IMG/VR virus record: IMGVR_UViG_3300005600_000083
Span: 1 to 20,869 of that record
Origin: a virus
DNA length: 20,869 nucleotides
Direction: 5' to 3' (one strand)
Shown here: piece by piece, positions 1,789 to 20,869 of the stretch
Layout of the letters: each line of letters begins with the position of its first letter
Position numbering within the stretch: position 1 is the first letter of the stretch
Notes under the pieces: model-generated
Database searches by the model: none
What the model was told of the DNA's origin: nothing
Seen by the model: the letters and a program-made list of their open reading frames with translations, nothing else
Made by a program: the position numbers and the translations under genes

Positions 1789-3403
1789 TTGGAAAAGCCA
1801 CATCGCCTGCCCGTATGAAGACTGCGGATCGTCTGATGCTTTCAGCTACAATACCGAGAGCATGGCTGGTCGTTGTCATAGTTGCGAACGCATTTACCCT
1901 CGGGATCGTGCACGCAAATTCGATTGGGCAGAGACTGAATACCCCACCCAACAGAGGGACGATTGGGAAATGACAAACAACACAACACCACAGCTAAGGG
2001 CTGTCCAGCAAGAGAAACTAGATGGTGTCTTCATGACCTATCGGGATATCTCAGAGGCAACCATGCGGTTCTTTAACTGCAAGACATACCTTGATGCCTC
2101 GGGTATCCCTGTCAAGCAGGACTACGTGTATCCTTCGGGTGGCATCAAGACCAGGTTCTTCCCCAAGCAATTCCGTGCGATGAACCTGCAGTCTGATGAG
2201 CTGTTCGGTATGAACCTGTGGAATGCAGGCTCGGGTAAGATCGTCACCATCACAGAGGGTGAGCTTGATGCTATGTCTGCATACCAGATGTGCAACAGCC
2301 AGAAATATCCCTCGGCCTTTGTCAGCCTGCCATCGGCCACCCCATCGAAGCGCCTCTGGACAAACGTCACGGAATGGCTGCGGTCTTTTGACAAGATCAT
2401 TCTGTCAATCGAACATGACGATCAGGGTAATGCTGTTGCCCAACGGATTGCCAACCTGTTTCCGAACAAGGTCTACCGTGTGCAGCATGACAAATACAAA
2501 GACGCCAATGAATTCCTGACCGAGGGTGCCAAGTCCGAGTATTACAATGCGTGGATGAATGCCCGTAAGTATACACCTGACAACATCATCAACACCTCTG
2601 ACCAATTCATGAAGCTGTATGATCGTTCAGAGAACCACGTCTACGTAGAGACAGGCATCTCTGACTTCGACGACATGTGCCTCGGACTGATGCAGGGTCA
2701 CTTCACCCTGTTCAAGGCACAGACAGGTATCGGCAAGACAGAATTCATGCGTTACCTAGAGTATCGTATCCTGAAGAACTACCCTGATATCAAGATCGCA
2801 ACGTGGCACATGGAAGAGACAAAGCTTCGGTCACTCTTGGGTCTGGTGTCATATGAGATAGGTGATAATGTAACACGTAAGGACTTGATCGAACAGAAAC
2901 AGCTAGACGAAAAGGTAAAGGATGGTATCCGTGAGCTGACCAAGGATGAACGCCTGTTCCAATTCTTTTTGAATGATGAGGATGATCCCCTTGATCTGCT
3001 TACACACATCCGGTATCTGTCACAGGCTTGCGATGTGAACTACGTGTTCTTCGAACCTATCCAAGACATTGCAGCCAACATGGGTGCAGAAGAAAGCAAA
3101 GAACAATTCCTTGCTGACCTTGCTGTTCGCCTGTCTAAGCTGGCTGCTGAACTTGGTGTTGGTATTATAACGATTGGCCATACGAATGACGATGGTCAGG
3201 TAAAGTATTGCCGCATGATTGAGCAACGGGCATCCGTTGTGGTAGATCTGCAGCGTAACAAGATGGCAGAAGATGCAGATGAAAGGAACACAACCAAGCT
3301 TCTTGTCACAAAGAACCGTCCGGTTGGTCCTACAGGGTATGCTGGTCAACTAAAATTCAACACAGAAACTTTTACCTTGGAGGAAAAGTATGCTTTCATT
3401 TGA
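1781..3403 (+). CDS. T7 gp4-like DNA primase-helicase
   Basis: A 540-residue bifunctional replication protein that primes the lagging strand and unwinds the fork. Residues 10-35 form a zinc-binding domain (C10, C15, C32, C35; CPYEDC and CHSC). The TOPRIM primase core follows, with ITEGELDA at 157-164 and EHDDQGNA at 211-218, whose acidic residues bind metal for primer synthesis. The helicase half is RecA-like: Walker A AQTGIGKT at 313-320, a Walker B strand YVFFEPIQD at 421-429 with Glu where T7 has Asp, IGHTND near 465, and RNK plus KNRPVGPTG near 492-519. The length is close to that of T7 gp4 (566). A hexameric ring is expected. It overlaps genes on both sides, consistent with one operon with the polymerase. 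Confidence 0.95.
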   Translation: MSNWKSHIACPYEDCGSSDAFSYNTESMAGRCHSCERIYPRDRARKFDWAETEYPTQQRDDWEMTNNTTPQLRAVQQEKLDGVFMTYRDISEATMRFFNCKTYLDASGIPVKQDYVYPSGGIKTRFFPKQFRAMNLQSDELFGMNLWNAGSGKIVTITEGELDAMSAYQMCNSQKYPSAFVSLPSATPSKRLWTNVTEWLRSFDKIILSIEHDDQGNAVAQRIANLFPNKVYRVQHDKYKDANEFLTEGAKSEYYNAWMNARKYTPDNIINTSDQFMKLYDRSENHVYVETGISDFDDMCLGLMQGHFTLFKAQTGIGKTEFMRYLEYRILKNYPDIKIATWHMEETKLRSLLGLVSYEIGDNVTRKDLIEQKQLDEKVKDGIRELTKDERLFQFFLNDEDDPLDLLTHIRYLSQACDVNYVFFEPIQDIAANMGAEESKEQFLADLAVRLSKLAAELGVGIITIGHTNDDGQVKYCRMIEQRASVVVDLQRNKMAEDADERNTTKLLVTKNRPVGPTGYAGQLKFNTETFTLEEKYAFI

Positions 3404-3605
3404 TTGGATGGCCTTCACTGCCGCCACCATTTACTTCTTGGGTATCTACCTACACTACATACACATCCTTACGATCTTCCACCTGCTGGATCGCTACGAG
3501 GAACTGAGCTTTAAGAGAACAATACTACACAGCCTTGTCTGGCCTTGGACTGTTCTTATGTTCCTGTGGGCTGGGCTGTTTGGGGATGATGAGGAAGACG
3601 AATGA
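3390..3605 (+). CDS. Small membrane protein, two predicted helices
   Basis: A 71-residue protein with a strong ribosome site (TTGGAGG) before ATG 3390. It overlaps the end of the primase-helicase by 14 bases and the start of the polymerase by four. Residues about 7-30 (TAATIYFLGIYLHYIHIL) and about 46-64 (LHSLVWPWTVLMFLWAG) are hydrophobic enough to span a membrane. A short linker holds DRYEELSFKR and the C-terminus is strongly acidic (GDDEEDE). No family recognised. A membrane protein between helicase and polymerase could tether the replisome to the membrane or act in superinfection control; both are guesses from position. Confidence 0.75.
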   Translation: MLSFDWMAFTAATIYFLGIYLHYIHILTIFHLLDRYEELSFKRTILHSLVWPWTVLMFLWAGLFGDDEEDE

Positions 3606-4501
3606 CAACTGTCGCAATGGATATCGAAACGGATGACCTGAATGCCACCCGCATATGGGTCATCTGCACCGAGGATGTAGACACTGGTGACAAACAAGAG
3701 TTTACCAATGTTGACTCGGACCAACAACAGAAGGAACGGTTCATTGAGTATGTCAAAGGCATTGACAATTTTGTTTTTCATAACGGTCTTGGGTTCGATG
3801 TTGCGGTTATCAACCGTCTTGTCCAGCCCAACCTGATCAACCCTCAGTCTGTCATAGATACCTTGGTTGTGTCACGCCTAGTGGACTACACATTGGATGG
3901 CAAAGGACATAGCCTTGATGCTTGGGGACGTAGGCTTGGTGACCACAAGATCGGGTTCAAGGATTTCTCTGCACTCACCCAAGAGATGATTGTCTATTGC
4001 CATCAGGACGTTACGGTTACCGTTAAGCTTTACCGTAGGTTGAAGGCAGTAATCACTGACCCTGAGTGGCAAGATGCACTGCGGTGTGAGCATGACATTC
4101 AGATCCTGTGTGAAGAGATGACAGCCAATGGTTTCTACTTTGATCACCAGAAAGCAGCAGAACTTCTTACAGAGATCAAGGACCGCATGGCACAGCTAGA
4201 AGCTGGCTTCCAAGAGGACTTCCCACCGAAGCTGGAAGAGGTGCACCGTGTTATCTACCGCAAGAAAAAGGATGGTAGTGATTTCTCTACGGTCACCAAG
4301 GCAAGGGACAAATACTATCAGACAAAGGTTGACTGGTCTGTTCAACCACCTGAGCTAGTGTGCTATGACTGGGTAGAATTCAATCCTGGCTCACCCAAGC
4401 AGCGTATCGAACGCATGTGGGAAGCAGGCTGGGAGCCATACGAAAAGACGAAAGGACACATCGAGTATGAAAGAGAACAATCAAGAGGATCGTGGCGTTA
4501 A
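3602..4501 (+). CDS. DNA polymerase family A, N-terminal 3'-5' exonuclease part (split gene)
   Basis: A 299-residue protein carrying the proofreading exonuclease and start of the thumb of a T7-type DNA polymerase. Exo I is MDIETDDL (D7, E9), Exo II HNGLGFDVAVI (D66) and Exo III YCHQDV (Y132, D136), so all metal ligands are present. The thumb includes ANGFYFD, FPPKLEEV and VEFNPGSPKQRI, then EAGWEPYEKTKGH, where uninterrupted T7-like enzymes continue into the palm. Here the frame stops at TAA 4499 and the palm is encoded in the +1 frame by the next ORF. The segment between FPPK and VEFNPGS is about 50 residues, shorter than I recall for T7, whose thioredoxin-binding loop lies there. ATG 3602 overlaps the previous stop. 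Confidence 0.92.
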   Translation: MTTVAMDIETDDLNATRIWVICTEDVDTGDKQEFTNVDSDQQQKERFIEYVKGIDNFVFHNGLGFDVAVINRLVQPNLINPQSVIDTLVVSRLVDYTLDGKGHSLDAWGRRLGDHKIGFKDFSALTQEMIVYCHQDVTVTVKLYRRLKAVITDPEWQDALRCEHDIQILCEEMTANGFYFDHQKAAELLTEIKDRMAQLEAGFQEDFPPKLEEVHRVIYRKKKDGSDFSTVTKARDKYYQTKVDWSVQPPELVCYDWVEFNPGSPKQRIERMWEAGWEPYEKTKGHIEYEREQSRGSWR

Positions 4502-5498
4502 GTTTGCCCGCTATGGCTGGACCATGAGTGAGGCTAACCTTAACACCCTTCCCGATAGTGCACCTGCTGGTGCCAAACGTCTGGCCGAGTGGCTGACCAT
4601 CGAAGGACGTAGGTCTAGCCTCGAAGAATGGCTTGGTCATGTTGGTGCTGACAGCCGTATCCATGGCAGGTTCACACACATCGGTGCATGGACAGGACGT
4701 ATGGCACACTCTGCCCCTAACCAAGCGAACATTCCATCGGCCTTCCACGGCACACCTAAGACTGCTGTCGAAGAGGTTAAGGCTCGGTATGACGGAGACT
4801 TTCGTGCCCTATGGTGCACACCCGAGGGTAGCTGGCTGGTAGGCACTGACGCAGAAGGCATCCAGCTACGTGTGCTGGCCCACCTGATGCAGTCCGAAGA
4901 GTATGTCCACGCTATTGTGTCAGGAAAGAAAGAAGACGAAACGGATATCCATAACCTGAACCGCAAGGCACTCGGTATGTCACACATCACAAGAGACATG
5001 GCTAAGACTTTCATCTATGCATTCCTTCTTGGTGCTGGTAATGCAAAGATTGCACAGATACTCAAGGTGAATACTCGTGAGGCAGGGCAAGCTGTTGACA
5101 ACTTCATGGAGTCCATCCAAGGTTTGTCAGAGCTAAAGAAGAAGATCATCCCTTATGTTGCCAAACGTGGTTGGTTCCGTGGTCTTGATGGACGTAAGGT
5201 CAAGGTTCCCTCTGAGCACAAGACACTGGCAGGTATGCTGCAGAACGGTGAGTCTGTCATCATGAAACATGCAGCCCTGCAGTGGACACGACAAGCAAAG
5301 GAACAAGGCTTTGACTTTAAGCTTGTCACATGGCCACACGATGAGTGGCAGACAGAAGTAGCTGGTGACTACAGCACAGCAGAACGTCTTGGTGATATCC
5401 AACGTCAATCAATTGTTGACACAGGGGTAAAATTCTGTATGCTCTGCCCGTTAGCTGGGTCAACAGACATCGGTAAGAACTGGAAGGATACCCATTGA
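4467..5498 (+). CDS. DNA polymerase family A, C-terminal polymerase part (split gene)
   Basis: A 343-residue polymerase domain with every catalytic motif. Motif A is GTDAEGIQLR (D128), motif B TRDMAKTFIYAFLLG (R176, K180, Y184) and motif C WPHDEWQTE (H291, D292, E293). The C-terminus, GSTDIGKNWKDTH, resembles the end of T7 polymerase, so the 3' end is complete. The ATG at 4467 lies 34 bases inside the exonuclease ORF, with AAGGA at 4452-4456 as a possible ribosome site ten bases upstream. The frame is open back to 4377 (after TAG at 4374). Together the two parts total 642 residues, near the 704 of T7 polymerase. They may be two subunits, one protein joined by a +1 frameshift, or the result of a sequencing error. 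Confidence 0.92.
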   Translation: MKENNQEDRGVKFARYGWTMSEANLNTLPDSAPAGAKRLAEWLTIEGRRSSLEEWLGHVGADSRIHGRFTHIGAWTGRMAHSAPNQANIPSAFHGTPKTAVEEVKARYDGDFRALWCTPEGSWLVGTDAEGIQLRVLAHLMQSEEYVHAIVSGKKEDETDIHNLNRKALGMSHITRDMAKTFIYAFLLGAGNAKIAQILKVNTREAGQAVDNFMESIQGLSELKKKIIPYVAKRGWFRGLDGRKVKVPSEHKTLAGMLQNGESVIMKHAALQWTRQAKEQGFDFKLVTWPHDEWQTEVAGDYSTAERLGDIQRQSIVDTGVKFCMLCPLAGSTDIGKNWKDTH

Positions 5499-13594: not shown

Positions 13595-13739
13595 ATTTCT
13601 TCTTAGCTGTCTTAGCTGCTTTCTTGAAAGCCTTGTCTGTGGGTGCACCCTTCGATCCTGGCTTCCTCATCTTCTCCCCACTGCCTTCTGCGATACGCTT
13701 ACGCTTGGCGTGGATGTTTGCGTAAAGACCCTTGGCCAT
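13593..13739 (-). CDS. Small lysine-rich conserved phage protein
   Basis: A 48-residue protein, [20 protein letters not shown], then EKMRKPGSKGAPTDKAF and a poly-Lys end (KKAAKTAKKK). I recall the [16 protein letters not shown] pattern in many tailed phages, always as a hypothetical protein. It is extremely basic and probably binds DNA, RNA or acidic virion surfaces. AGAGG upstream and a one-base overlap (TAATG) with the preceding gene support the start. It is the last gene of the late unit and its stop codon abuts the terminator. Confidence 0.8.
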   Translation of the reverse strand: MAKGLYANIHAKRKRIAEGSGEKMRKPGSKGAPTDKAFKKAAKTAKKK

Positions 13740-13882
13740 TACTTCTTCCTCTTCTTATGTTTAGCCTTACGTGCTACGTCTAGTGCAATAGCTACAGCTT
13801 GCTTCTGAGGTTTGCCAGCCTTCATCTCAGTCTTGATGTTCTGGCTTACGGTCTTCTTACTATAACCCTTTTTCAACGGCAT
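13739..13882 (-). CDS. Small lysine-rich conserved phage protein
   Basis: A 47-residue basic protein, [20 protein letters not shown], then [20 protein letters not shown] and a basic tail KHKKRKK. The [11 protein letters not shown] motif recurs in short phage proteins I have seen, function unknown. The ribosome site GAGGTG is six bases before ATG 13882. With its two basic neighbours it forms a cassette at the end of the late operon. Confidence 0.8.
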
Positions 13883-13892
13883 GTCTAGCACC

Positions 13893-14159
13893 TCACCACT
13901 TCACCTTGTCAGCCCAGTAGGCTGCACTCATCTTGCCCTTCTTGATGTTCTCTGCATGACGAGCCTTAAATGCTTTCTGCCGTGCAGTAGGCTTCTTATC
14001 GCCTGTGACACCCTGTTGGCCAAACCGAATTGTCTTGATCTTGTCACCCTCTTTGGCAACAACCACATGAGATTTAGTCGGATGATTCGGTGTTCGTTTT
14101 GGTTTGTTGAAACCCTCAACACCAGCACGTTCTAGCCTTGGATCTTTCTTACTGGCCAC
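13893..14159 (-). CDS. Basic conserved phage protein (GTG start)
   Basis: An 88-residue protein. I chose GTG at 14159 because GGAGG lies six bases before it and the product then starts [20 protein letters not shown]. The in-frame ATG at 14165 would place the ribosome site against the start codon. Conserved-looking blocks are [29 protein letters not shown], and [11 protein letters not shown]-like [19 protein letters not shown] at the C-terminus. I recall this family as common in phages, without a proven role; the pattern [11 protein letters not shown] suggests a small beta domain. It overlaps the preceding membrane-protein gene by eleven bases. Confidence 0.85.
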
Positions 14160-14412
14160 GACCATCCTCCATCATTTCTCGGATAGCTTTAATGTTCTCG
14201 TCGATACGTGCATTAAGGATTGACAACTCTTTTGTTGTTTCTTCCAGCTTCTCTAAACGTATTTCATGACGAGCTATGTCTTTCATGTTTGTATCAACAT
14301 TGCTATTTAGTGAGGATACATACCACACAAGAGCAAATGTTTGACAAACAATAGCAAAGATCAAAGTCAAAGGTACAGATTTAGACAGGTGCCACGATTC
14401 GTTCTTATCCAC
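14149..14412 (-). CDS. Membrane-anchored coiled-coil protein, lysis-cassette candidate (GTG start)
   Basis: An 87-residue protein starting at GTG 14412, overlapping the spanin candidate by eight bases. Residues 1-12 are polar (MDKNESWHLSKS). Residues 13-34 form one membrane helix (VPLTLIFAIVCQTFALVWYV). Residues 38-82 are a heptad-like helix (IARHEIRLEKLEETTKEL). One anchor plus coiled coil suits a holin or an inner-membrane spanin. Because the neighbouring gene already looks like a unimolecular spanin, a holin or holin-associated role is the better guess. Evidence for lysis is the position after the GH19 gene; there is no diagnostic motif. Confidence 0.75.
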   Translation of the reverse strand: MDKNESWHLSKSVPLTLIFAIVCQTFALVWYVSSLNSNVDTNMKDIARHEIRLEKLEETTKELSILNARIDENIKAIREMMEDGRGQ

Positions 14413-14755
14413 GGTAACGCCCCAGTGTTATTGTTTTTAGGAAACCCCTCCAGATTTCAGCAGGGGAAGGAAGCATCCACCCAAGAACCAGCAAAACGAT
14501 TACCCACATCGGAATGTCTTGGTTGAGGATTTTAACAGACTCTACATTACCAGAAGGAGAGACTTGTGAGTTGTCTATGTTTACGTTCTCACCACTAACA
14601 TCAGCACTATTGTCAATTACGGATTGGTTGTTTTCTTTACCTGCTTGAACATTGGCAGCTACGTTAGGGCCACCCCCACCACCAAGCAGTGACAAAGGGT
14701 TGAGGCAACCACTCAGGATAAAGATTAATGGTAGTGTTAAAGCTAACCGTTTCAT
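14405..14755 (-). CDS. Candidate unimolecular spanin (lipoprotein with C-terminal membrane helix)
   Basis: A 116-residue protein. Residues 1-17 form a lipoprotein signal ending in the lipobox L14-S15-G16-C17 (MKRLALTLPLIFILSGC). A Gly-rich stretch and a GGGPNVAANVQAGKENNQ block follow, then a polar Asn/Ser/Val linker, and a membrane helix at about 82-96 (PMWVIVLLVLGWMLP). The C-terminus is short and basic (LGRYRG). A lipid-anchored N-terminus in the outer membrane and a helix in the inner membrane is the architecture of u-spanins such as T1 gp11, which fuse the two membranes at lysis. The ATG overlaps the stop codon of the GH19 gene. Family assignment is inferred from topology. Confidence 0.7.
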   Translation of the reverse strand: MKRLALTLPLIFILSGCLNPLSLLGGGGGPNVAANVQAGKENNQSVIDNSADVSGENVNIDNSQVSPSGNVESVKILNQDIPMWVIVLLVLGWMLPSPAEIWRGFLKTITLGRYRG

Positions 14756-16323
14756 TTCGCCACGAAGAACTCTTTGCCATGCACGATGGACTGGCCTGCC
14801 TTGACACCTTGCGCAGCAATAGCCTCTTGGATTTTCTGGGTATACAAGCCTGTGTCACCAGTCCCACCAGTCTGACCGATAGGCTGGATAGCCATTGGGA
14901 TACGAGTTGACTTAGCGTAAAGTTCCTTGACCATCTCACGAGTAGGAAGAATTGAACCACGTTCAGCAGCCAAGGCTACAGCTTCATTCTTGTTGACAGA
15001 GATGTAGTTTCCGTTCTCATCTTTGGCGTAGTCAGGTGATGCATACACAGTCTGACCGTTCATATCACCAACAGGAACGTAGCCTTCTTTCTGTTCTGTG
15101 GTATACTCACGGAAAAGCTGGCTGTAGTCCTTGTAGTCTGCGCTATGGGCCATGCCTGAGCCATCGAAGGACTGCCACACTGTGTCTTGGTCTTTGACAC
15201 CACCAATCATGCCTAGAACATTAGGGTCGGCAGTCGGTGTGGCTGTGCTTTGGTTTTGCATTAGATCGTCTGGTCTTGCTTGTGGCCTTACAGATTCAGC
15301 TAAACTGCTGTACAAGTTGAAATACTTTTTGCGATCTTCTAGGCCATTATATCCGCCGTTGATGATCTTAGTGATACGCCGTGTATCGCTAAAGTCTTGT
15401 ACACGAGGCCTTACATTCTTTTTCCAGAACCACAGACTTACATCTGCTGCAAGGTTCTTGTCAGTAGCTACCTTTGTAGGATCAGCTAGAAGATCTACCC
15501 CAAGCTCTTTGCCTGCGGCTTCGTAGTTTGCCCGACCTGTAAGCTGAATAAAACCACGACCCTTAAAACGTTTGCCATCACCTTCTTGGGTATTACCCAA
15601 GTCTTTACGGTTCTCATAGGCAGCACCCGACGCATATTCTTCTGCAGTCTTAAAGCTGGCTGATTCATGGGCAAGCTGTGCCATATAAGCGTTAAGCTCA
15701 TCACCTTCCAGTCCATTAGCTACAGCATGGTTGTAGGCAAAGGCTAGGTTTTCCTTCTGCACATCATTCAAAGGACGATCACTTGAGTCACGTAAGAATG
15801 TTTTTGGAATGCCAGTAAGGTCTGCTGTTACTACCATTCTTTCAGGTTGAGTTGGGTCTACTTGGTCAGACGGGGTTTGCATTTCGGGAAGATTTGGCAT
15901 CGTAGGAGCAGCACCAGAGGCAGCAGGAGCTTGAGGTGCTTGGTCTAGTATACCAAAGTTAAGTGCACTAGGTGCCGTTGTCATGGCCTGTGGGGCCTCA
16001 ATAGGCTGGACAGGCTCTGGTCTTGCTTGTGGACGGACAGACTCAGCAGGTGCTTCCGGTCTTGGCTGTGGGCGTAATGACGTTTCTGGTGCAGACGTAG
16101 CAGGTCTTGCTCCGAATGGTGTAGTCCGAGACTGAGTGATGCCTAGTGATTCACGAATAGCACCGATAGTAGCTGCATCCTGACGAGCCAGGGCTTCCAT
16201 GATGTCAGCAAAACTCTGACGTTCTTGTTCTACTACAGGTTGGTCCTGTTGTGGTTGTTGTTCCTGAACGGGTTGCCCATTTCGAATGACAACTTTGGAA
16301 CGATCACCGAACATGCCTGCCAT
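14752..16323 (-). CDS. Proline-rich virion or lysis protein with GH19 lysozyme domain
   Basis: A 523-residue protein. I chose ATG 16323 (MAGMFGDRSK), with AGAAGG nine bases upstream; the longer frame to 16431 lies inside the preceding gene. Residues about 17-165 are low-complexity and rich in Pro, Gln and Ala. Residues about 172-343 are a GH19 chitinase-like muramidase, with AQLAHESASFKTAEEY (catalytic Glu at 220, second at 228 or 229) and the signature GDGKRFKGRGFIQLTGRANY. The remaining 180 residues have no recognised domain. AESVRPQARP occurs on both sides of the domain. It may be the endolysin or a virion-bound enzyme opening peptidoglycan at entry; the length and the neighbouring ejection proteins favour the latter, the spanin neighbour the former. 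Confidence 0.88.
   Translation of the reverse strand: MAGMFGDRSKVVIRNGQPVQEQQPQQDQPVVEQERQSFADIMEALARQDAATIGAIRESLGITQSRTTPFGARPATSAPETSLRPQPRPEAPAESVRPQARPEPVQPIEAPQAMTTAPSALNFGILDQAPQAPAASGAAPTMPNLPEMQTPSDQVDPTQPERMVVTADLTGIPKTFLRDSSDRPLNDVQKENLAFAYNHAVANGLEGDELNAYMAQLAHESASFKTAEEYASGAAYENRKDLGNTQEGDGKRFKGRGFIQLTGRANYEAAGKELGVDLLADPTKVATDKNLAADVSLWFWKKNVRPRVQDFSDTRRITKIINGGYNGLEDRKKYFNLYSSLAESVRPQARPDDLMQNQSTATPTADPNVLGMIGGVKDQDTVWQSFDGSGMAHSADYKDYSQLFREYTTEQKEGYVPVGDMNGQTVYASPDYAKDENGNYISVNKNEAVALAAERGSILPTREMVKELYAKSTRIPMAIQPIGQTGGTGDTGLYTQKIQEAIAAQGVKAGQSIVHGKEFFVAK
15271..15300. repeat. 30-bp direct repeat, copy downstream of the GH19 domain
   Basis: This segment matches 16018-16047 at 26 of 30 positions, starting with TGGTCTTGCTTGTGG on the + strand. 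Both encode AESVRPQARP. This copy lies at the C-terminal edge of the GH19 domain. Confidence 0.8.
16018..16047. repeat. 30-bp direct repeat, copy upstream of the GH19 domain
   Basis: Second copy of the repeat at 15271-15300, encoding AESVRPQARP in the proline-rich region. A weaker third version, encoding TSLRPQPRP, lies just upstream in the gene near 16060-16090. Confidence 0.8.
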
Positions 16324-16324
16324 A

Positions 16325-18331
16325 TCACCGGACCTTCTGTTCAATATCACCATCACGGTTGATGAAATACTCACCAACATCGAGAGAAGCAAAAAGCTTT
16401 TCATCAACGTCTGTTTCATCTGACCACACAATCTGCCACGGGTTCTTCAGAGTTCCAATCTCTGGAGTCTGCGTAGGTTGTTGAGTTTCTTGGATCATCA
16501 TCTGGTCAAACTTAGTGGTATCTGCACCAAGACGACGCAGATTGTCCGAGTAGAATTTCAAGCCTTGTGTCTGACGTTGGATCTGGCTGTATTGTTGGTA
16601 GGCTAAGTTAAGCTTCAAGCCTGCAGCTTCTACCTGACCACGATCAAAGGCAGACATACGGCGACCACGATCAGCAATCATTGCAGTAACATCACCACCA
16701 TAGTGCTTCGAGGCAAAGATACGAACGGTAGCCTTTTCTTTGTCATCAAGAGCAAAGACACTGCCTTGGTTTGCATCAAGGTCAAACTCTACCTTACCAA
16801 TACCAGCAATCTTGAAGGCACTATCAGCAAGGGTACCACTCATAGCTGTTACTTCAATGTTTGCCTGAGCACGTAGAGCATCAGCCATACGAGCCTTAGC
16901 TAAGCTGACACCATTCGGATCGAACTTCTCGGCCTCTTTCAGTTTGACAAAGACTTCATCGGTGAACAGATTACCAAGCTTACCTTTACCAACAAGAACA
17001 TTGGACGTTGCAATGGCTACGGTGCTTTGACCAATACCAGCAAGGAAGTTGTCACGTTGCTCAGGCTTAACCATGTCCTCAGGTTTGACAAGGTTTGCTC
17101 GTGTGTTGCCAAAGTTAATAACATCACGACGTTTCACATCACCAAACTGCAGACCCTTTTCGATCTCATTAGTATCGTGAAGACTATCCCTTTGGATAGC
17201 TACATCAGCAGGAGGAAGCTTGGTGACAGAGATGGTTCCATCAGGTGCCGTAGTGCTTTCGGCCTGTGTGACAGCCTCTTCGAATACACTAAAGTCTAGC
17301 TCAGTGTATACGGTTTCTTCTGCGGTAAGGCCTTCCAGAGATTTCTGAACGGTTGAGTATTGGCTGGCAATATAAGCAGACCAGTCAGCTTTAGGATCAA
17401 GCAAAGCTTTAGCCAGAAGAGGATCTGTCTTTGCCATCTCTTTGGCTTGTTTCTGCAGTGCACCCCAGATCGGTTCCATAATCTCAAGGTTAGTCCGGTT
17501 CATCATGTCTTGGTCGTAGTTCTCTACGGTAGTCAGAAGCTGATCCAAGGTGTCGATCTGCGATTGGACACCCTGCCATTGTTCTGCTGTCACATACGAA
17601 GGCTTAGTGTAAGTAGCCTTAATGCGTGTCAGTTCAGAACGAAGACGAACAAGGGACTCAGGAGAAATGTTACCACCCTGCTGTTCAACTGCAAGGCCAG
17701 CAAAAGCAAGCTGACGAACCTTTGTCAGAGCAGTGTTGAGTTGTGGTTTAAGATCATTCTCAAAGTCTACCTTGGCACCAGAAGCAGCAGAAGTGATTGC
17801 CACCTCGTTAGCCATCAGGGTCTGTGCCTCACCCATAGCAAGGCGAAGGACATCATCAGGGTTGTAAGGCTTACCTTCAGCTTTAAGATCACGTTCTGCC
17901 TTGAACATCAGGCCAGGGTTATCCTGCATGAACTTAACAGTAGCGTCTGCGGCTTCCTGCTGTGGGTTGTAGTTCAAGTAAGAAATATCAACACCATTCT
18001 TCAACTGGACAAGCTCACTGACAGATGCGTCAATCTTACCACCAGCATTAGTGTATGCTGTCAGTGCAGAGTTGATACCTGTACGAACCTCAAGAGGGCT
18101 TTTACCTTTCAGGTTATCAAGAGACTGTGATAACTGGCCATATAGCTGTCGGTTGATAGAACCTTCGGACTGCTTAGAGGCTCGTGCTTGGGCGTTCATG
18201 ACACCAAAGACACCACGACCAAGATCGGATAGACCTTGTGCAGCTACAGCAAGCCCAGTGGTGCTCGGCATGGTTACGGGTTGCTCGAAGGAAGAACCCT
18301 CGTCACCGATATCTACAGCAAATCCAGCCAT
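16325..18331 (-). CDS. Internal virion / DNA-ejection protein
   Basis: A 668-residue protein with ribosome site TAAGGA seven bases before ATG 18331, shared with the stop codon of the upstream gene. It is rich in Ala, Gln and Leu and mostly helical, with long amphipathic stretches such as ARASKQSEGSINRQLYGQLS and VRLRSELTRIKATY. There is no signal peptide, membrane segment or catalytic motif. The size, composition and position, between a large putative ejection protein and a lysozyme-containing protein, resemble the internal-core proteins (gp14-16) of T7-like podoviruses, which form the channel for DNA entry. I do not see clear sequence identity to T7 proteins, so the name rests on context. 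Confidence 0.7.
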   Translation of the reverse strand: MAGFAVDIGDEGSSFEQPVTMPSTTGLAVAAQGLSDLGRGVFGVMNAQARASKQSEGSINRQLYGQLSQSLDNLKGKSPLEVRTGINSALTAYTNAGGKIDASVSELVQLKNGVDISYLNYNPQQEAADATVKFMQDNPGLMFKAERDLKAEGKPYNPDDVLRLAMGEAQTLMANEVAITSAASGAKVDFENDLKPQLNTALTKVRQLAFAGLAVEQQGGNISPESLVRLRSELTRIKATYTKPSYVTAEQWQGVQSQIDTLDQLLTTVENYDQDMMNRTNLEIMEPIWGALQKQAKEMAKTDPLLAKALLDPKADWSAYIASQYSTVQKSLEGLTAEETVYTELDFSVFEEAVTQAESTTAPDGTISVTKLPPADVAIQRDSLHDTNEIEKGLQFGDVKRRDVINFGNTRANLVKPEDMVKPEQRDNFLAGIGQSTVAIATSNVLVGKGKLGNLFTDEVFVKLKEAEKFDPNGVSLAKARMADALRAQANIEVTAMSGTLADSAFKIAGIGKVEFDLDANQGSVFALDDKEKATVRIFASKHYGGDVTAMIADRGRRMSAFDRGQVEAAGLKLNLAYQQYSQIQRQTQGLKFYSDNLRRLGADTTKFDQMMIQETQQPTQTPEIGTLKNPWQIVWSDETDVDEKLFASLDVGEYFINRDGDIEQKVR

Positions 18332-18340
18332 ATCTATTCC

Positions 18341-20869
18341 TTATTGAATTTGTTGTTGAAGAAGTTGTGCCTCAGGCCCAAGGTCCAGACGAAGAGCATT
18401 ACGCATAATCTCGGGGATTGACCCAGCGTTTACGATATTCTTCTGCAGGGAAAGTTTAAGCTCATTCGAGAAGCGAGACGACCAGATGGTGTCGTTGATT
18501 TCTTCCCAAAGCTTAGTTCCCCTAATCATATCATCTTCGTCACCATTTGTCAATAGATCAATGGCAAGACGAGCCTTCTCGTTGATACGACCACGGAAGT
18601 CACGGAACTCTTGGTTCTCTTTGAAGACCATTTCTTGGTAGTCGTAGTAGTTCTGAACGGGTGCAGGAGTTGCACCAAACAGAACAGAGGCTGCTGCTTG
18701 TGGTGGTAGACCCTGAACGGCCATCTTGTGTGTCCGACTACGATAGTTACCTGTCTCAATCAACTCTGCAATCTTGTAGGCTTTGTCTACGGTTGACAAG
18801 TTACGGACAAGCTGTGTCAAGTCATCACGGACAAACTCAGTGCTGCCACCGAACATGGCCTTGAAGGCGTTCATAGCTGTGGCTACCATACCACCACCAA
18901 TCTCACCTGACGGACCAAGAAGAACAGTCATGAACTCATCACTGAATAGCTTCTTGTATGTGTCAAAGATCTGATCGGTAGGTGCCACACGAGTAGCGTA
19001 GGCAGTCTCAACACCAAGAACATTCGACAGGATTGCATCCAAGGCACCATACTTGACACGGTTGTAAGCAATTACTGCGTCTTCACTGTCAGGGTCAAGA
19101 CCTAGCTGTTCCACAAAGTAACCAGCCATAGAGCCAGCACCAAGACCAGTCAAACCATAGAGTGGCCCCATGGCCAGTGCCATACGGAAACGTTCTGCCT
19201 TCGTAAAGTTACGACCAACAACAATGTTTTCCAAAGCACGGAACGAGAAGGTCAACCACTGAGTAGGCACACGCATAGGGCCACTCTGGATCATGCTGCG
19301 TGATTGTGTTGTCATACGGAAGGTAAGGTCTTGCTCACGGTTGGTGATCCAACGCTTGCCTTCGGGTGACAAAGGATTGATGTTGGGGAACTTAGCACGG
19401 TGCTCTAGGAAGGCAGTGCTGATGCCAGCCATACGGGTTACACGGTCGCCTTCCTTAAAGAACAGCGTCGAGGTATCCAAGAAGCTGCCGACACCCTGAC
19501 GAGCCTTACCGATAAGAGTGCTAGAGTCACCAAACTTTTGTGGTGCCTGCAATTCGATAACCTGGTTGTCAACAATATTACGACCACTCTCGTCGATGTA
19601 ACGGACAAGCAGCGTCAGGTCTTCCTCAGAGATGGGAGCTACCTTAGCAAGACGTTGAATGGCAAGCTTACGGGCTGCAGGGTTCTTCAAGTTTGCAATC
19701 ACCATCAGAGGTGTTGACAAACCGAGGCCCTTTGTCCCAGCCACAGGCGAGATAGCTGCAATGGTCAGCGAGTGCAAACCCTGCAGAATAAACTGGTCAG
19801 GGTTAAAGAAACCAAACTTCGAGTAGAAGCCTACCTTCAGCAACTCACCAGATGCATCGGCTGCACCAAAGTCAACCTTCTTGCCAGTCTTCTCGAAGAC
19901 AAACTCGGTGACACCATTGGTGAAGCTTTCCCACCGTTCACTCATCCATGTTGGTTGGTTAAGCCGACGTTTAATTACATCTTGCTGTTCCCGAAGCTGG
20001 GCTGCTACGTCATTAAACTTACCAGACTTGGATACCTTACCATTCAGGAACAGGTTCAGGTAGTCATTGCTTGGGATGCCTGCAGGGAAATCAACAACAC
20101 CAGATTTCTGTGCTAGTTTTACCCAGCCTACGATAGCATTCTGCGATGCTGCACGGTTAGCATAACCAAACACCTCAGAACCAAACTGATCTGCAATGTT
20201 GCTGATGGGGCTGGCATTGGTTGCCATCTTGCCACCGAACTCCATTGGTGGTGTGTCACCCCTACGCATGTTCAGGCGAGTGCCTACAACCTCACCAAAG
20301 CTGGAGCCTACTGCCGCAGGGTCTTCGCCTGCCTCACGCAGTGACACCTTCTCATCACGAGCCTTGCCAACAAACTCTTCCTTGAATGACAAACGATACT
20401 TAGCAGAGAACTTCTGCAAGTCTTCAAGGTCAGTGATGTGTTTGTTCCACGAGTTGTTTGCTCGGATCAAATCACCAAGCTCATCGTAGTCAGCCTTACT
20501 TAGGGTCAAGTCACCAATATCGTCAACAGCAAAGGCTTCCATGTATTCCTTTACTTTACGACCAATGGCGTTAAGTTCACGTACTGCAGTCTCTGCCTGT
20601 TCCTTACCAAAGGAACCCAAGGCAGTCTTGAAGCCAGCCGAGATGCGGTTACCAGAAGCAAGTGTCTGTTCTTTGGTAGCACCAACAAACCAACGGAACT
20701 CAGAGTTAGTACGAGGACCACCAACGTTGTAAGGCATAACGTCTACACGTTCCAACACACGGGTTCTCTTTACGCCAGTGACGTACAGGTGGTCCACATA
20801 GGTGTTAGGAACCTTGAATACGATCTGGTCTTCGTTTAGCTGATCCTTACGTAGGCTCTTGTTCGACTT
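18341..20869 (-). CDS. Large internal virion / ejection protein (5' end outside window)
   Basis: The frame is open to the window edge and gives at least 842 residues; internal GTG and ATG codons are not needed as starts, so the gene is cut by the window. It is helix-rich. There are hydrophobic stretches around GPLYGLTGLGAGSMAGYFV and ISPVAGTKGLGLSTPLMVI, which could insert into the host membrane during DNA entry. Other parts are polar (WITNREQDLTFRMTTQSRSM). No lysozyme or transglycosylase motif is visible in the part shown. Size and order suggest the counterpart of T7 gp16-type ejection proteins. The stop codon TAA forms part of the next gene's ribosome site. Confidence 0.7.
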   Translation of the reverse strand, partial: KSNKSLRKDQLNEDQIVFKVPNTYVDHLYVTGVKRTRVLERVDVMPYNVGGPRTNSEFRWFVGATKEQTLASGNRISAGFKTALGSFGKEQAETAVRELNAIGRKVKEYMEAFAVDDIGDLTLSKADYDELGDLIRANNSWNKHITDLEDLQKFSAKYRLSFKEEFVGKARDEKVSLREAGEDPAAVGSSFGEVVGTRLNMRRGDTPPMEFGGKMATNASPISNIADQFGSEVFGYANRAASQNAIVGWVKLAQKSGVVDFPAGIPSNDYLNLFLNGKVSKSGKFNDVAAQLREQQDVIKRRLNQPTWMSERWESFTNGVTEFVFEKTGKKVDFGAADASGELLKVGFYSKFGFFNPDQFILQGLHSLTIAAISPVAGTKGLGLSTPLMVIANLKNPAARKLAIQRLAKVAPISEEDLTLLVRYIDESGRNIVDNQVIELQAPQKFGDSSTLIGKARQGVGSFLDTSTLFFKEGDRVTRMAGISTAFLEHRAKFPNINPLSPEGKRWITNREQDLTFRMTTQSRSMIQSGPMRVPTQWLTFSFRALENIVVGRNFTKAERFRMALAMGPLYGLTGLGAGSMAGYFVEQLGLDPDSEDAVIAYNRVKYGALDAILSNVLGVETAYATRVAPTDQIFDTYKKLFSDEFMTVLLGPSGEIGGGMVATAMNAFKAMFGGSTEFVRDDLTQLVRNLSTVDKAYKIAELIETGNYRSRTHKMAVQGLPPQAAASVLFGATPAPVQNYYDYQEMVFKENQEFRDFRGRINEKARLAIDLLTNGDEDDMIRGTKLWEEINDTIWSSRFSNELKLSLQKNIVNAGSIPEIMRNALRLDLGPEAQLLQQQIQ

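Follow-up and report, generated by a model that had tools for sequence, protein, structure and literature searches.

Among the questions raised by the viral record IMGVR_UViG_3300005600_000083 of IMG/VR is whether its DNA polymerase is produced as one protein or as two. This 20,869-base stretch, one metagenomic contig (the window), encodes the exonuclease and polymerase domains of a T7-type family A DNA polymerase in two overlapping open reading frames (ORFs), here called exo and pol. On the basis of comparison with related viruses, the two ORFs very probably encode the subunits of a single replicative polymerase, with the pol subunit initiated independently at the ATG at position 4467. An earlier sequence-only reading of the same DNA had offered a natural two-subunit polymerase as its first option, for which strong support now comes from the conservation of the split, from selection, from homologues with separated genes, and from ORFs inserted between the two genes. 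Its second option, +1 slippage at CGT-TAA-G, is unsupported given the variability of the codon concerned, the pol-frame selection ahead of the stop, and the genes that lie between the halves in some relatives.

The two ORFs lie where that reading placed them, with pol shifted by +1 and overlapping exo by 35 nt (Table 1). It was also right that all exonuclease motifs fall in the first ORF and all polymerase motifs in the second, with none lost. The pair has the exonuclease motifs I-III and polymerase motifs A, B, and C of family A (T7-type) enzymes and is collinear with T7 gp5 in the order exonuclease, thumb, palm, fingers. A single polypeptide, which is usual in family A without defining it, is replaced here by two ORFs. 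In Pfam, exo matches DNA_pol_A_exo1 (5.8e-6) and RNase_H_2, and pol matches DNA_pol_A (2.5e-31); both match PHROG 17 in collinear order, at profile positions 670-920 and then 915-1233.

Conservation of the split

The split is common to the closest relatives of the window. The nearest named viruses are two Veravirus phages (Cobavirinae, Zobellviridae), CRP-5 (75% DNA identity over the exo/pol pair) and ICBM2. The CRP-5 isolate carries two DNA polymerase coding sequences with an identical 35-nt overlap, and the ICBM2 isolate (MF431616) is annotated with an exonuclease-domain gene and a polymerase-domain gene that are direct homologues of exo and pol. The window also has the gene order of these phages (primase/helicase - exo - pol - thyX - exonuclease - RNR), and can be recognized as carrying a Veravirus-like replication module. 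No other DNA polymerase is annotated in CRP-5 or in the complete genome PQ867845, a relative described below.

Among the 80 best matches in IMG/VR, nearly all that reach the exo region are split, either with a +1 overlap or with an insert between the genes (here and below, locus sets are the best matches per query with many near-duplicates, and frequencies are not population estimates). The exceptions are one locus with a fused gene (L055) and two without the exo region (L053, L071). Median pairwise dN/dS is 0.086 for exo and 0.051 for pol across 246 non-independent pairs.

The sequence-only reading had held that single-ORF polymerases in all close relatives would speak against it; nearly all close relatives are in fact split. 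It had also suggested a comparison with SIO1, P12053L, and ICBM cobavirus polymerases; SIO1, P12053L, and ICBM1 each give one continuous match. ICBM1, which was directly inspected, has one 580-aa ORF, and CRP-4, CRP-9, and CRP-13 also have single-ORF polymerases. No cellular-genome relative was found in a scan of genome contigs.

Position of the break in the fold

The exo profile aligns with residues 3-263 and 330-357 of T7 gp5 and the pol profile with residues 404-704, in collinear order. T7 gp5, which is a single chain, ranks first among PDB sequences for each of the two halves, and it also ranks first by fold when the fused homologue is compared. The break falls in a lineage-specific insert between residues ~357 and ~404, inside the thumb, and not in a linker between the start of the thumb and the palm as first proposed. 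Fused relatives of this lineage have an extra variable segment, KTKGH...YGW, at the junction, which is missing from ICBM1 (Siovirus) and more distant homologues.

The exo protein extends for 100+ residues past its nuclease domain and includes the invariant thumb positions F260, N261, S264, W273, G276, W277, and P279. In the family A fold, the helices around the junction form the thumb, and each chain would therefore supply part of it. An AlphaFold2 (AF2) model of the fused L055 homologue has a mean pLDDT (predicted local distance difference test score) of 89.9, with a minimum of 57-60 at junction residues ~291-310. Its top fold match is T7 DNA polymerase (E 2.8e-35). The AF2 models described here are of single chains, and one was built with alignment rows drawn exclusively from IMG/VR loci.

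Proposed translation of the pol subunit

Codon-position entropy at 37 distinct ungapped junctions reveals selection in two frames. Upstream of ATG 4467, variation tracks the exo frame, with 0.25, 0.15, and 0.86 bits at positions 1, 2, and 3; downstream of the exo stop, it tracks the pol frame (0.35, 0.21, and 0.98 bits). Values in the overlap, from the ATG to the exo stop, are 0.64, 0.24, and 0.51 bits, and the DRG codons just before the stop are variable solely at the pol-frame third position. The changeover of per-site variation to the pol frame occurs at ATG 4467.

This ATG is the sole one in the pol frame between 4374, where that frame has an upstream stop, and 4524. All 19 representatives scored use TAT for the Tyr codon that helps create it, compared with a bulk ratio of 60 TAT to 123 TAC in these genes, though these are not 19 independent trials because the sequences are related. 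As the sequence-only reading had noted, the downstream ORF has its own ATG with AAGGA ten bases upstream, which forms part of the Shine-Dalgarno-like AAAGGA.

In the mechanism proposed, proofreading would reside in the exo protein together with the initial portion of the thumb, and the pol protein would contribute the remaining thumb, the palm, and the fingers. Pol would initiate on its own within the end of exo, perhaps coupled to exo translation. The two chains would then assemble non-covalently, share the thumb, and act jointly. The arrangement may have originated when a fused ancestor was cut within a flexible insert in the thumb.

Fission, gene separation, and apparent re-fusion

The two genes are not always adjacent. 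In PQ867845, exo is ORF21 and pol is ORF29, with seven genes including a primase/helicase between them. A primase/helicase also lies between exo and pol in L089-L092 and L106/L107, and no frameshift could join the halves at any of these loci because genes intervene. In the T5S1 lineage, exo is separated from pol by other genes including the primase/helicase.

Many of the small flanking ORFs at L085 (PQ867845.1 9610-14208), L089-L092, L106, and L107 resemble one another at the C-terminus, for example in ending with P.EFL or P.EFF. Annotated CobS and CobT cobaltochelatase genes lie shortly upstream of exo in PQ867845.1 (5413-9219), a cobavirus relative.

In a tree of 69 pol domains with fused outgroups, two-gene forms are found in a T5S1-like clade, in the clade of the window (with L152), and at L113; binary parsimony gives five changes. 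A single origin of the split was rejected by the approximately unbiased (AU) test (p 3e-55 against all two-gene rows as one clade), as was a clade uniting the Veravirus, L152, and L113 rows (p 2e-4). The AU groups were defined post hoc from the tree, and L055, the fused locus nested among split ones, was left out of them; two origins are thus the secure minimum, with a third being likely. The tree thus points to fission of a fused ancestor in one thumb loop at least twice, and probably a third time.

The reverse change may also have occurred. L055:753-2684 encodes a single-ORF polymerase that is nested in the split clade as sister to the split L014 (support 100/99), and its junction is occupied by an unrelated linker (HHRLYFRYGRPLPFTSPKIE). 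This suggests a re-fusion, for which an assembly cause is also conceivable as it is seen in one contig.

Inserted ORFs, mostly endonuclease-like, at the junction in relatives

At six loci examined in detail (L026, L037, L046, L054, L072, L084), the usual ATG of pol instead opens an ORF that lies between exo and pol, and pol restarts further downstream, close to where the insert ends. The inserts are mostly endonuclease-like, and several have Pfam matches to endonucleases: HNH in L054 (2.4e-10; L037 has a near-identical twin), T5orf172 in L072 (1.1e-9), and Endonuclease_7 in L084 (5e-12). No endonuclease match was obtained for the ORF of L026 or for the first of the two in L046, which are HNH-like by eye only; the second in L046 matches HNH_5 weakly. 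The window has no endonuclease gene at its split site; such genes are present in relatives such as L037, L054, L072, and L084. In the tree, the loci with inserts branch from within groups of split loci that have none, a pattern that favours fission first and invasion later.

In L046, tandem ORFs (2996-3574 and 3546-3998) lie between exo and pol. The second starts with MQDSVTRGDK, which resembles the start of L026 pol (MQDNAMRGDK) and suggests two successive insertions. Apparently, the start that pol retained after the first insertion was then captured by the second ORF.

The HNH inserts of L037 (1608-2003) and L054 (2089-2484) are 98.0% identical at the DNA level. About 90 nt on each flank of the insert are ~91% identical, compared with 71.5% for the remaining exo and 75.6% for the remaining pol. 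Outside the insert, L037 is 97% identical to the insert-free L016, and L054 is ~95-96% identical to the insert-free L061/L042. This is the pattern expected from homing with co-conversion, and would represent a homing footprint left by movement of the insert between diverged genomes at the junction, in relatives of the window. Under homing, the L054 HNH enzyme is predicted to cleave beside GATCGTGGAGATAAGTT in empty-site loci of the L016 or L042 type.

A broader scheme can be outlined, which we judge to stand at about even chances. The thumb would be made of two chains, fission would have recurred in the same loop in separate lineages, and the internal start of pol would serve as a landing platform. 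Unrelated homing-type endonucleases would repeatedly insert just after this start and capture it, with pol gaining a new one (apparently twice in L046). The subunits could also drift apart, as in the T5S1 lineage.

Alternative explanations

As the window is one metagenomic contig, the split might be suspected to reflect gene decay or a mistake in sequencing or assembly. The split is no artefact because the same layout is found in the independent isolates CRP-5 and ICBM2 and in dozens of IMG/VR contigs, with dN/dS far under 1 and intact catalytic motifs; the probability of such an origin is vanishingly small. The same is true of an intron or intein that joins the halves after transcription or translation. 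While DNA polymerase genes of phages can contain introns, and one was proposed for MEP401 by the authors of PMC10580990, the window is without an intervening sequence and the exo stop is homologous with or without the L037/L054 insert. There was no Rfam match at the gathering threshold in the window or the insert-bearing loci. A programmed +1 frameshift at the exo stop, giving one polymerase of ~73 kDa, is highly unlikely. It would agree with the +1 relation in all directly overlapping Veravirus-type loci, the possible slow-stop context TAA-G, and the fact that a fused polymerase works in relatives, but the +1 relation is explained by common descent. A conserved slippery codon with a stop was sought among the relatives and not found. 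The codon before the stop is of at least ten kinds among representatives (CGT, CGC, CGA, AGA, AGC, AGT, GGC, TAC, AAG, and others), and loci of the L019 and L032 types terminate exo 9 nt further upstream, hence there is no conserved slip site. In addition, constraint on the pol frame already begins at the ATG; slippage at the stop is disfavoured because it would not impose pol-frame selection ahead of it. Nor can a single slip fuse the halves where an endonuclease or primase/helicase intervenes.

It is also unlikely, if less so, that exo and pol are two independent proteins, with exo a stand-alone nuclease and pol a polymerase without proofreading. Separate exonucleases occur in other phages, and the two genes are far apart in T5S1-like phages. 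However, exo retains its long extension with invariant thumb positions, pol alone would be without half of the thumb and has its own half modelled at low confidence, and L055 has apparently gone back to the fused state. Some observations nevertheless weigh against a two-subunit polymerase with its own pol start. Conservation, two-frame selection, use of an independent start codon, and separate genes in a related lineage can be read from the sequences, whereas complex formation between exo and pol is something we infer. Function does not require fission, since the polymerases of CRP-4 and L055 are fused. The Shine-Dalgarno-like site has GGR in 20 of 20 split representatives and AARGGR in all, but its conservation cannot discriminate because fused relatives with Lys-Gly use GGA in 33 of 35 cases, making AAAGGA codons equally common without a split. 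Its 10-nt spacing from the ATG is also long. On the supporting side, the first ~90 residues of pol modelled alone have a pLDDT of ~31-59 and the equivalent thumb region of the fused L055 mostly 72-96, a contrast that fits a two-chain thumb but is suggestive only, as it compares different alignments in an uncontrolled way.

Relation to known systems

Domain separation in some Zobellviridae is already published. The relevant passages of the VirClust paper (PMC10143988) report a few members of this family with exonuclease and polymerase domains as independent genes, the same two-domain division as in the window. In those passages, the split is used just as an example of protein clustering, with no account of junction, translation, inserts, or phylogeny. 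Likewise, the passages found in cobavirus and CRP papers contain no discussion of it. Start-codon capture, a homing footprint, the distribution of the split, and its multiple origins were not found in the literature searched and may still be published; no paper using the name Veravirus was found in this search.

Other enzymes in two parts provide useful comparisons. Phage 25/44RR, a relative of T4, has a polymerase divided between genes 43A and 43B, and the halves copurify and are polymerase-active according to the relevant passage of PMC2988022, which cites Petrov et al. 2010. It is a two-part polymerase like that of the window, but belongs to family B and is non-homologous. In phage Aeh1, NrdA is split by mobE and the two polypeptides re-form a functional enzyme (PMC2988022); this is a ribonucleotide reductase with a homing endonuclease in its gene, in contrast to the endonuclease-free junction of the window. 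In MEP401 and MEP402 (Zobellviridae), a family A DNA polymerase is likewise encoded by two ORFs (PMC10580990); the interruption falls within PF00476 (profile ~132/154) and contains a small ORF, unlike the thumb break of the window. Phage Mic1 also has its polymerase, DNA polymerase gamma, in two ORFs (ORF85/ORF86), with a gap that its authors called a 298-bp intron (PMC7156551); this break runs through the PolA motif. Rhodothermus phage RM378 was considered as a split family A precedent and dropped, as, of the two polymerase-annotated genes in its first 50 kb, one is a 5'-3' exonuclease and the other a family B exonuclease domain.

Features of the window

The features of the exo/pol locus are summarized in Table 1. 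Elsewhere in the window, the minus strand carries long ORFs (818, 668, and 559 aa) at 13739-20797, opposed to the replication module and with the same polarity as in CRP-5. These probably encode virion proteins.

Table 1. Coordinates of the genes, motifs, and junction elements of the exo/pol locus in the window.
Feature	Position	Strand	Remarks
Exonuclease subunit gene (3'-5' exonuclease domain and first half of thumb)	3602..4501	+	299 aa, 35.0 kDa, pI 5.0
Exo motif I (DIET)	3620..3631	+	Intact
Exo motif II (HNGLGFD)	3779..3799	+	Intact
Exo motif III (YCHQD)	3995..4009	+	Intact
Thumb segment FNPGSP...GWEP...KTKGH, C-terminus of exo subunit	4379..4459	+	
AAAGGA, Shine-Dalgarno-like, 10 nt before ATG 4467	4451..4456	+	Encoded by Lys-Gly of KTKGH
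Polymerase subunit gene (second half of thumb, palm, and fingers)	4467..5498	+	343 aa, 38.3 kDa, pI 8.3
ATG of pol subunit	4467..4469	+	Formed within exo Tyr(TAT)-Glu codons
35-nt overlap, 3' end of exo and 5' end of pol both read	4467..4501	+	Pol is +1 relative to exo
TAA stop of exo	4499..4501	+	Formed where a pol codon ends and the conserved RGxKF Lys codon follows
Pol motif A (DAEGIQLR)	4848..4871	+	Intact
Pol motif B (RDMAKTFIYAFLLG)	4992..5033	+	Intact
Pol motif C (HDEW)	5337..5348	+	Intact

Significance

These viruses provide a natural experiment in which the same polymerase is found fused, split with an overlap, split with an endonuclease between the halves, and split with a primase/helicase between them. 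This makes it possible to test to what extent a family A polymerase depends on being covalently linked, whether two chains can build a thumb in trans, and how an essential gene survives endonuclease invasion. For annotation, both ORFs should be labelled as subunits of a polymerase rather than as frameshift errors. The split is widespread in a group of ocean phages, and its site has been repeatedly hit by mobile endonuclease genes.
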